A DNA stretch of 64,000 nucleotides from Listeria monocytogenes (GTDB lineage: Bacteria; Bacillota; Bacilli; Lactobacillales; Listeriaceae): positions 2,232,001 through 2,296,000 of the forward strand of contig NZ_LT906436.1 of NCBI RefSeq assembly GCF_900187225.1, read 5' to 3'. This document shows positions 13,638-49,752 of this stretch, one piece after another. Position numbers and translations under genes: made by a program. The stretch's first letter is position 1; every line of letters starts with the position of its first letter. The notes under the pieces are model-generated. The model was not told where the DNA came from, ran no database searches, and worked only from the letters and a program-made list of their open reading frames with translations.

Positions 13638-14931
<1,294 letters not shown>

Positions 14932-47322: not shown

Positions 47323-48192
47323 ATGGATGGATACAACGATTTAAAAAAGGCTGAAAAAGCGGCATTTTTGAGTATATTTGCCTATTTATTTCTAGCGGTT
47401 TTAAAAATAGTTGCTGGGCAATTAGGAAACTCTGATGCCTTACTTGCAGATGGTTTGAATAATACGACTGATATTGTTGCTTCTGTTGCGCTTTTAATTG
47501 GCCTTAGAATTTCTCGTATTCCGCCTGATGCAGATCATTCATACGGACACCGACGAACAGAAACTATCAGCTCTTTAATCGCATCTATCATTATGTTTCT
47601 CGTTGGTGTGCAAGTTATTTGGAGTTCGATTGTTCACATTATCGAAAAAGAATTTGCAACACCCTCAATGTTAACCGCTGTTGTCGCTCTTTTTTCTGGT
47701 GTATTTATGTATGCTATTTATTTATATAATCATCAGCTTGCGAAAAAACTTGATAGCCAAGCAGTGCGAGCTGCTGCATATGATAATCGTTCGGATGCCT
47801 TTGTTAGTTTTGGTGCATTTATCGGGATTATCGGCGCGGTTCTTGGTGTTCCTTGGCTTGACTCCGTGACAGCCTTTTTGGTCGGTATTTTGATTGTTTA
47901 TACTGCTATCAAAATTTTCTATGATGCTGCACATACATTGACAGATGGTTTCGATGTTTCTAAGCTAGAAACTATTCATGATTTAATTGCTTCTGTACCT
48001 GATGTCAAAAAAGTAATTGACATTAAAGCACGAATGAACGGAAATAGGATTTGGATTGATGCAACTATCGCTGTGGATCCTGAATTAAATGTAGTTAAAA
48101 GTCATGAAATTACCGAAATTGTTGAACAAAAAATTCGCAACGAATACGAAGGTGCATTCACTTTAGTTCATATTGAACCATTTTTTGAATAA
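47323..48192 (+). CDS. Cation diffusion facilitator (CDF) metal exporter
   Basis: 289 aa. Six membrane segments in the N-terminal 200 residues. Metal sites are LLADGLNNTTDIVAS (helix 2) and DHSYGHRRTET, with the second half VRAAAYDNRSDAFVS. C-terminal cytoplasmic ferredoxin-like CDF domain (DVKKVIDIKARMNG, SHEITEIVEQKI). Exports divalent metals; the exact ion (Zn, Mn or Fe) is not clear. The helix-2 site has Asn where many have His, which hints at Mn or Fe rather than Zn. GGAGTACAT ribosome site. Confidence 0.9.
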   Translation: MDGYNDLKKAEKAAFLSIFAYLFLAVLKIVAGQLGNSDALLADGLNNTTDIVASVALLIGLRISRIPPDADHSYGHRRTETISSLIASIIMFLVGVQVIWSSIVHIIEKEFATPSMLTAVVALFSGVFMYAIYLYNHQLAKKLDSQAVRAAAYDNRSDAFVSFGAFIGIIGAVLGVPWLDSVTAFLVGILIVYTAIKIFYDAAHTLTDGFDVSKLETIHDLIASVPDVKKVIDIKARMNGNRIWIDATIAVDPELNVVKSHEITEIVEQKIRNEYEGAFTLVHIEPFFE

Positions 48193-48198
48193 TATTCA

Positions 48199-48227
48199 TT
48201 GTCAATAATCGTAAAGTCAACTATAAT
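48199..48227 (+). promoter_or_regulatory. Promoter of the CNNM transporter leader
   Basis: -35 TTGTCA (48199-48204), exact 17-bp spacer, -10 TATAAT (48222-48227). Near-consensus, seven bases after the CDF stop codon. Confidence 0.8.
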
Positions 48228-48233
48228 TTAGAT

Positions 48234-48357
48234 TAAAGTATCATTTGCTGGGAGGGAATATTCGATGGGGCAGAGAAACTAATTCACATAAATTATCAAA
48301 CTAGAATGAAAAATATGCAGCAACACATTGGAGGAGTTCTCTTCCAGGGCGTTTTTT
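48234..48357 (+). ncRNA. Candidate riboswitch/attenuator leader of the CNNM transporter
   Basis: The promoter predicts a 214-nt leader before the start codon. A terminator hairpin lies at 48322-48357. An upstream segment CTGGGAGGGAA (48248-48258) can pair over 11 bp, counting two G-U, with TTCTCTTCCAG (48337-48347), which contains most of the terminator's 3' arm. The two structures exclude each other, the arrangement expected of a riboswitch or protein-controlled attenuator. I do not recognise an aptamer class (not M-box, yybP-ykoY or T-box by motif). The transporter suggests a cation ligand, which is inference. Confidence 0.55.
48322..48357 (+). terminator. Conditional terminator in the CNNM leader
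   Basis: TGGAGGA (48329-48335) pairs with TCTTCCA (48340-48346) around GTTC. The stem continues with AACAC/GCGTT beyond a 2x2 internal loop and is followed by a U-run ending at 48357. Confidence 0.6.
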
Positions 48358-48406
48358 CTTCTATATAGATAGTTTTATCATAAGCTTATTTATATTAAAC
48401 TAGGAG

Positions 48407-48451
48407 GTGTTTGCCTTAGCAGAAACTATTTCTGTCAAGGCGATTTATTGA
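48407..48451 (+). CDS. Possible 14-aa leader peptide overlapping the CNNM start
   Basis: A frame from GTG (48407) through TTTGCCTTAGCAGAA... ends in TGA at 48449-48451, which overlaps the TTG start of the transporter (TTGA). AGGAGGTG provides the only strong ribosome site in this region, but it overlaps the GTG, so translation is uncertain. If real it would couple translation to the transporter. Confidence 0.25.
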   Translation: MFALAETISVKAIY

Positions 48452-49752
48452 TATTAACCATTAAATTTTTAATTATAGCTTTACTTATTGCTATATCAGC
48501 ATTTTTCGTGGCAACAGAATTTGCGATTGTTAAAATGCGACCGAGCCGTTTAGACCAATTAATTGCGGAGAAAGATAAACGTGCAGTCCTCGCTAGACAT
48601 ATTTACAATCATTTGAATGCTTACTTATCAGCCTGCCAACTTGGGATAACGATTAGCTCCCTTGGACTTGGTTGGTTGGGAGAATCTACGGTAGAAGCGG
48701 CGTTACATCCGTTATTTAGCTTAATGGAGCTTCCGCAATCAGCTATTACGATTCTATCCTTCACAATTGCATTTCTATTTATCACATTCTTGCACGTAGT
48801 TGTTGGGGAACTTGTACCGAAAACATTGGCGATTGATAAAACAGAGACAGTTGCACTTGCGGTAGCTCGTCCACTGCATATTTTTTATAAAGTGATGTTC
48901 CCGTTCATTTGGATTTTAAATGGTTCTGCAGTTTTCATCGCGCGTCTTTTTGGTCTAGAGCCAGCTTCTGAGCACGAAATCGCTCATACCGAGGACGAAT
49001 TAAAAATAATCGTTGGTGAAAGTTATAAGAGTGGTGAAATCAACCAATCAGAATTCCGTTATGTGAATAAGATTTTTGATTTTGATGAACGTATGGCGAA
49101 AGAAGTCATGATTCCGCGAACAGAGATTGTGACCGTTGATACTGGATCTACAATCGGGGAATTATCCGACATTATGCAAAATGAACGTTATACACGATAT
49201 CCAGTTATTGATGGAGATAAAGACCACGTTATCGGCGTACTTAATTTAAAAGAAATTTTATCAGCGTATGTCGAACATGGCTCGAGTCCAAGTTTTAGCA
49301 TTGATCCTTACGTAAAACCAATTATTCGTGTGATTGAAACGATTCCGATTAAAGAATTGCTTTTCCGTATGCAGCGTGAACGTTCCCACATTGCTATTCT
49401 GCTTGACGAATATGGTGGTACTTCTGGACTTGTTACGGTTGAAGATATTGTAGAGGAAATCGTAGGTGATATCCGCGATGAATTTGATGCCGATGAAATT
49501 CCAGAAATTCGCAAAATCAAAGATGGACACTATATTGTAGATGCGAAACTTCTGATTGATGAAGTAAATAACATTTTAGGTACTGAAATTGAGGAAGAAG
49601 AAGTCGACACAATCGGCGGTTGGTTCTTAACACAAAATTATGAAGTAGAAGTTGGGGACGAAATTGATTATGACGGATTCATTTTCCGCGTAAAACAAGG
49701 CGAACCTCATCATATTGAATATATCGAAATCATCAAAAAAACAAATGATTAA
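48448..49752 (+). CDS. CNNM/CorC-type (HlyC/CorC) transporter with CBS pair
   Basis: 434 aa. DUF21/CNNM membrane domain of about four helices (1-170), then two CBS domains (about 210-330; VMIPRTEIVTVDTGS, RYTRYPVIDGDKDHVIGVLNLKE). A C-terminal CorC_HlyC domain ends it (YIVDAKLLIDEVNNILG, VGDEIDYDGFIF). Related proteins handle magnesium or cobalt efflux. The only in-frame start with continuity is TTG at 48448; it lacks a ribosome site at normal distance, but AGGAGGTG lies 39 bases upstream. A bidirectional terminator follows. Confidence 0.88.
   Translation: MILTIKFLIIALLIAISAFFVATEFAIVKMRPSRLDQLIAEKDKRAVLARHIYNHLNAYLSACQLGITISSLGLGWLGESTVEAALHPLFSLMELPQSAITILSFTIAFLFITFLHVVVGELVPKTLAIDKTETVALAVARPLHIFYKVMFPFIWILNGSAVFIARLFGLEPASEHEIAHTEDELKIIVGESYKSGEINQSEFRYVNKIFDFDERMAKEVMIPRTEIVTVDTGSTIGELSDIMQNERYTRYPVIDGDKDHVIGVLNLKEILSAYVEHGSSPSFSIDPYVKPIIRVIETIPIKELLFRMQRERSHIAILLDEYGGTSGLVTVEDIVEEIVGDIRDEFDADEIPEIRKIKDGHYIVDAKLLIDEVNNILGTEIEEEEVDTIGGWFLTQNYEVEVGDEIDYDGFIFRVKQGEPHHIEYIEIIKKTND

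Follow-up and report, generated by a model that had tools for sequence, protein, structure and literature searches.

In the erm and cat translation attenuators, a short upstream open reading frame (uORF) for a leader peptide is combined with mutually exclusive stems and a downstream Shine-Dalgarno (SD) sequence. Programmed −1 frameshifting is known from dnaX, Escherichia coli copA, and Bacillus subtilis cdd, whose slip sites are of the type X XXY YYZ, and −1 slipping is stimulated by an SD located upstream. The starts of phage T4 genes 38 and 25 place a hairpin between the SD and the start codon, and corL has a leader of the same kind as mgtL and YoaL. To our knowledge, little has been learned of how Gram-positive bacteria control Mg2+ export. 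The consulted sections of one study link ribosome behavior to Mg2+ transporter genes for the YoaL and MgtL leaders and for CorC in Enterobacteria (through intrinsic ribosome destabilization in corC), and also tie Mg2+ transporter genes of Salmonella to leader peptides (PMC12421838). Excerpts of PMC5009743 describe the antizyme +1 frameshift as a polyamine sensor. The consulted portions of PMC6711546 and PMC11332163 attribute Mg2+ export to MpfA in Staphylococcus aureus and Bacillus subtilis, and the MpfA literature, in the parts consulted, does not describe a leader element of mpfA. A search of open-licence PMC text listed no description of an SD-hairpin-UUG element, of a leader peptide at lmo2232, MpfA, or CNNM genes, of a MerR frameshift, or of yhdP/yhdQ in this context.

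The window analyzed here is a stretch of 64,000 nucleotides from a genome that forms a single 2.86-Mb contig. Our interest lies in the leader between the end of a CDF gene at 48192 and the TTG start of a CNNM gene at 48448 (Table 1). The gene is presumably lmo2232 and the organism presumably Listeria monocytogenes. The encoded protein carries CNNM, CBS, and CorC_HlyC domains in the same arrangement as MpfA and is, judging from its sequence, probably an MpfA-type, Mg2+-exporting transporter. The second CNNM gene of the same genome has an ordinary SD-ATG start. In the parts of the literature consulted, lmo2232 appears in stress proteomics and in connection with a mutation. The promoter of the original prediction is present upstream of the leader, and TATAAT also precedes the uORF in those remaining Listeriaceae leaders that were read; the surrounding 3.4-kb region contains 14 promoter-like sites vs 11.6 in shuffles. 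In one genome (G016), the CNNM gene match is split into two pieces, indicating a gene that is broken or misassembled. Elsewhere in the window, an Rfam scan recognizes the rli61 RNA (1676-1781), which marks the genome as one of Listeria type, and a T-box leader (13644-13871).

Table 1. Positions in the window of the features of the leader and of the transporter gene.
Feature	Position	Strand	Remarks
Promoter-like site TTGTCA-17-TATAAT	48199..48227	+	11/12 consensus; predicted TSS ~48234
Helix P1, strand 1	48245..48267	+	SD1 to uORF start
SD1, ribosome site of the uORF, GGGAGGG	48250..48256	+	GG[A/G]GGG 14-16 nt upstream of uORF start in 36/36 Listeriaceae leaders
uORF, ATG GGG CAG AGA AAC TAA (MGQRN*)	48265..48282	+	putative slip site at ATGGGG
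Frame −1 of the uORF (GAEKLIH..., 33 codons + stop)	48267..48368	+	open to near SD2; begins like MerR-type GAEKL/GTEKL of relatives
Hairpin H	48302..48363	+	alternative fold between uORF and SD2, excludes P1; window z −2.9; limits species-dependent
Helix P1, strand 2 (anti-SD1)	48325..48350	+	also contains hairpin 48328-48347
SD2, ribosome site of the CNNM gene, AGGAGGTG	48402..48409	+	GGAGGTG without variation across alignment A1 (35 chosen sequences)
Hairpin between SD2 and start codon	48413..48441	+	covariation across A1
CNNM/CorC-type (MpfA-like) transporter	48448..49752	+	TTG start, 434 aa; PF01595 4e-52, CBS, CorC_HlyC

The best-conserved block of the leader, which the original prediction had missed, is the five-codon uORF together with its own ribosome site (48250-48282), the two being separated by 8 nt. 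Such a short frame with an SD, as expected for a leader-peptide attenuator, is found in 36/36 Listeriaceae genomes, whose leaders fall into 11 sequence clusters, so that these counts do not represent 36 independent cases. Used as a DNA query, the leader matched 28 of the 36 genomes; beyond close relatives the matches cover parts of ~48213-48300, most tightly ~48249-48286, and one genome (G029) matches only over a piece near SD2. The SD followed by the pattern [A/G]TGGG[A/G]C[A/T]GNNNAAC occurs in 35/36 Listeriaceae genomes, counting one place per genome (two genomes match twice through the register of the G-run), and the 36th encodes MGQIY* at the equivalent place. The same pattern with SD is absent from all 259 non-Listeriaceae genomes of the order sample, and the reversed control pattern gives no match. 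The peptides read MGQRN, MGQCN, MGLSN, MGQTN, MGQKN, MGQIY, or MGQNNETRH, with ATG or GTG as start and TAA or TGA as stop.

Across Bacilli, this pattern was met in three genomes of one non-Listeriaceae genus, each time immediately upstream of a CNNM gene, and once more within an unrelated gene position; as a control, the pattern in reverse found one genome. In that genus, a MerR-type gene (Pfam MerR_1) starts with the uORF-like block. MerR genes adjoining CNNM genes start, after a ribosome site, with [A/T]TG GG[G/A] placed one base out of the frame of the regulator. A MerR profile search matched 119/378 Bacilli genomes and, at E ≤ 1e-20, found none in the Listeria genome studied here. The uORF-to-SD2 interval of 87-162 nt across the 36 leaders leaves no room for a MerR gene in Listeriaceae.

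We examined 50 MerR loci, mostly upstream of CNNM genes, consisting of the 30 best and 20 picked from the hit list for family spread. An offset start [AUG]UG GG[G/A], containing UGGG[G/A], was found by script in 46 of these 50, 44 of them with an SD-like motif; the script does not require an SD, and two loci (L337 and L348) lack such a motif before the offset start, while at L309 it took an earlier TTGGGA beside the proper ATGGGG. These same 46 loci combine a slippable codon with a downstream open frame in −1. Among the exceptions, three loci start in frame and one (L345) has a different site. One of the in-frame loci, L334, has an identical GTGGGACAG start and offers a natural contrast to the out-of-frame ones. 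Codon-position variation after the offset start was analyzed in two groups of the 45 distinct rows, with entropies of 1.47 vs 0.82/0.53 (21 rows) and 1.23 vs 0.56/0.20 (20 rows); in both, the highest value belongs to the third positions of the frame of the regulator, from right after the offset start, as in a frame that is coding as far as this site. Ten loci are devoid of any in-frame ATG, GTG, or TTG ahead of the helix-turn-helix signature. In 12 of the 46 offset loci, a loose script additionally flagged a start that is in frame and has an SD-like motif. Among these 12, five (L322, L325, L327, L338, and L352) show TAATG or TGATG overlaps with the short frame, at which reinitiation is possible; the regulator frame of these five looks coded upstream of the overlapping ATG as well (GKDL, GKEL, GKGL). 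An in-frame ATG is present at L348 and L350. As a general explanation, a non-canonical start codon located one base before GGG was rejected, this codon being GAT, ATT, CTT, TAT, GTT, or others according to the locus.

The simplest reading of these starts is that the MerR regulators are probably produced when the glycine tRNA at codon 2 slips into the −1 frame, and the distance of the SD would suit its stimulation of such a slip. In two MerR loci (L105 and L106), and partially in L107, L309, and L320, repeats of the type CCATCACGT / ACGTGATGG surround the promoter upstream of the MerR start and are possibly the operator of the regulator.

The Listeria uORF looks like a remnant of such a MerR-type gene start. 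The ATGGGGCAGAGAAACTAA of the window is identical at 15/18 positions to TTGGGGCTGAGAAACTGA, a MerR start of another locus (L312), and the −1 frames of both begin with GAEKL. In 36/36 Listeriaceae leaders, the −1 frame is open for 24-56 codons and ends between −64 and +45 of SD2. Its length exceeds the mean of the shuffles in 11/11 clusters (Fisher p 0.008, lowest single p 0.054, for a frame chosen for testing after its openness had been seen), and the corresponding value for the +1 frame is p 0.90. Residues past GAEKL are not conserved among the 36 leaders. An open frame with unconserved residues would be expected if ribosomes traverse the leader and the peptide they make is irrelevant, or it could be due to chance.

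The leader can adopt two exclusive folds. As originally predicted, CTGGGAGGGAA (48248-48258) is able to pair with TTCTCTTCCAG (48337-48347) over 11 bp, two of them G-U, and this pairing forms part of helix P1. P1 beats shuffles (p<0.05) in 29/36 Listeriaceae leaders, and its strands differ between clades yet stay complementary. The region between uORF and SD2, with the uORF removed, folds better than shuffles (p<0.05) in 33/36 leaders, with z from −1.1 to −4.9, mostly as one large hairpin H that contains a P1 strand (one leader, G018, is an exception). Two alternative stems are supported as conserved features of the leader, and one of them uses the leader frame, as in leader-peptide attenuators. 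In the window, the first 127 nt of the leader have an ordinary fold (z −1.2, 20/200 shuffles as good) and the leader through to the start codon an unusual one (z −3.3, 0/200). In the minimum free energy fold, the 5′ end of the transcript (48237-48243) pairs with the start-codon region (48449-48455).

The output of this switch is less clear than its structure. Pairing of SD2 with the leader beats shuffles in only 1/36 leaders, so that an OFF state with sequestered SD2 is weakly supported, and we rejected such pairing as a proven OFF state. When occupancy of the uORF is modelled, SD2 opens more in 29/36 leaders, less in 6, and to the same degree in 1, and the shift is often small. The folding predictions thus support the switch as a structure, and only weakly its effect on SD2.

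One rival reading is a simple erm-type attenuator of translation, in which a ribosome on the uORF (MGQRN*) would disrupt P1 and free SD2, with no frameshift in Listeria. Such an attenuator would explain why SD1 and both the start and the stop of the uORF are conserved, and why P1 and H exclude each other. Against it speak a −1 frame that is open for at least 24 codons in 36/36 leaders and the retention of UGGG[G/A]; and, codon 4 of the uORF being free, a sequence-specific stall peptide would have little to act with beyond MGQ-x-N. We consider this explanation less likely than the leader proposed below.

The original prediction had favored ligand-controlled termination. In a transcription attenuator of this kind, a ligand, or alternatively a ribosome, would select between an 8-bp terminator and the 11-bp antiterminator. 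The predicted terminator is recognizable in the window as an 8-bp stem (48328-48347) followed by GGCG and T6, and P1 does overlap it, but it is not conserved with the leader: hairpins of terminator type followed by a T-rich tail occur in 12/36 leaders, namely in 11/15 of the cluster of the window and in 1/21 of the others, so a conserved intrinsic terminator was rejected. The 20 leaders of that second set that lack it retain uORF and SD2. Moreover, the T-run lies 4 nt off the stem and is also part of hairpin H. The 3.4-kb region contains 4 terminator-like sites vs 2.4 in shuffles. The Rfam scan finds no match in the leader, and we reject a riboswitch of any Rfam class. With no known aptamer and a terminator nearly confined to one cluster, ligand-controlled termination is not supported, and transcription attenuation appears improbable. 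Term-seq has yielded 12 new candidates in L. monocytogenes, mostly with a terminator only and unnamed in the consulted part of that report (PMC8632094).

The interval between AGGAGGUG and the UUG of the CNNM gene is a conserved hairpin, which places a conserved stem between SD and start codon; the arrangement of AGGAGGUG, hairpin, and UUG recurs at CNNM genes of Bacilli with quite different stem sequences. In the same interval, a 14-aa leader frame overlapping the start codon had been suggested. A GTG frame does exist, but it reaches the TTGA overlap in only 23/36 Listeriaceae genomes, and the distance from ribosome site to TTG varies over 40-46 nt and not by threes, which speaks against a conserved frame; this leader frame was rejected.

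In alignment A1, the hairpin has a covariation score of 0.583 vs 0.220 for shuffled alignments and at most 0.221 when slid. Its 35 sequences were picked for showing the hairpin, which favors the percentage of paired cells (77.3% vs 53.5% shuffled). Cells changed on both sides number 98 vs 39.7 in shuffles; that 10/10 pairs are changed on both sides does not exceed shuffles (mean 9.6). Many 5′ arms begin with CUCCU or UCCUU, which could pair with the SD itself, and many 3′ arms contain AAGGA or AAGGG not far from the UUG. The hairpin may, from these motifs, be bistable or conceal a second ribosome site. An effective SD-start spacing calculated with RNAfold (mean 7.3, sd 3.9) is noisy because extra pairs at the base of the stem were counted, so an equal spacing across loci is not shown by it.

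Genomes with CNNM genes (239/398 Bacilli genomes at E ≤ 1e-120) outnumber those with the element, for which a covariance model gave 59 hits in 48/250 Bacilli genomes under strict filters that lose weak matches. The 30 model-hit loci that were listed are all at a CNNM gene, 29 by script and one, cut by a contig end (L202), by hand. Applied to 85 of 92 loci (all but L137, L159, L187, L188, and L194-L196), the model matched 64, 27 of which are its own seeds. Among the best 80 named CNNM loci, a match lies directly upstream in 27 (E ≤ 0.05), all of them Bacilli, including Bacillus, Neobacillus, Cytobacillus, Lysinibacillus, Staphylococcus, Planococcus, two Paenibacillus, Sporolactobacillus, Carnobacterium, and others. 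The remaining 53, with many Paenibacillus, have no upstream match at this threshold, and most Paenibacillus as well as Negativicutes, Actinobacteria, Proteobacteria, and Chloroflexi loci of these 80 have none even at E ≤ 1. A first, crude classifier had sorted 89 CNNM loci into 58 with a far SD, 13 normal, and 18 with none; by eye, the hairpin is also present in several (seven) of the latter two classes. Four loci have a second SD-hairpin match behind the first CNNM gene (E 0.0008 to 0.92), perhaps at a tandem paralogue. An Rfam scan of 20 loci from other Bacilli has no match at the SD2 hairpin. Its one match lies elsewhere, upstream of the CNNM gene at L139 (1-86, minus strand), and is to the Guanidine-I riboswitch with 62.8 bits, the gathering score being 63. 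A leader that senses nothing and merely keeps expression constantly low, through a weak start in a structured site, would also fit the UUG and the stable hairpins seen at many loci of Bacilli. It is the least probable of the explanations considered; a low-level start has no need of alternative folds that exclude each other, of a regulator gene, or of a probable recoding site at the same place.

What is conserved in the leader, namely its ribosome sites, the uORF, and the hairpin within the initiation region, points to control of translation. The stems and the promoter of the original prediction are real, and translational control is better supported than a riboswitch with a terminator. We propose, with a probability of about one half, that the MpfA-type gene is preceded by a translation-controlled leader with three layers. 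In the first, the start and first codons of the uORF would descend from the MerR-type regulator start present at this place in other Bacilli, where ribosomes would come to read the regulator by slipping −1 on codon 2 (U GGG/A). In the second, SD1 would pair with 48325-48350 to form P1 as long as the uORF is unoccupied, and a ribosome on the uORF would allow the rest of the leader to fold as hairpin H. In the third, the folded SD2 hairpin would bring AGGAGGUG and the UUG near enough for initiation by the 30S subunit. Ribosomes that end after codon 5 would leave the leader to fold and the exporter low, and slipped ribosomes reading on toward SD2 would open it. Whether ribosomes stop at codon 6 or slip into the longer frame, or simply whether one is present on the uORF, would then set both the leader fold and the use of SD2. 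We infer the slipping itself, its continued role in Listeria, the direction of ON and OFF, and the signal. Mg2+ or another cation is our guess for the last, because MpfA is held to export Mg2+ and because of the Salmonella precedent of leader peptides at Mg2+ transporter genes.

A more general version can be put forward tentatively. The MpfA-linked MerR regulators of Bacilli would be made chiefly by the −1 slip at codon 2, the start of the exporter would be bridged by its hairpin, and the slip rate would be the cation sensor; Listeriaceae would have lost the regulator and kept its start, the slip site, and the open −1 frame as a frameshift-sensing leader. If so, a whole transporter family would share an unusual start site, the N-termini of a regulator family may have been misread, and programmed recoding would be extended to a new position, codon 2.

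The proposed leader can be compared with each of the described systems. Like the erm and cat attenuators, it has a short uORF with its own SD, exclusive stems, and a downstream SD; unlike them, its uORF resembles the fossil of a regulator start, no link to a drug is seen, and an additional hairpin lies within the main start. As with mgtL, corL, YoaL, and corC, what the ribosome does within a leader or N-terminus would be tied to an Mg2+ transporter, genes with CorC domains included; peptide, phylum, and RNA differ. The MerR starts would share with dnaX, copA, cdd, and antizyme an upstream SD, slipping on repeated bases, and two products, whereas their putative slip occurs at the second codon, on U GGG/A and not X XXY YYZ, and yields a whole regulator. 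Finally, as in T4 genes 38 and 25, a hairpin spacer would bring the SD to the start codon, but the CNNM start is cellular, belongs to one gene family, and is kept by covariation across Bacilli.
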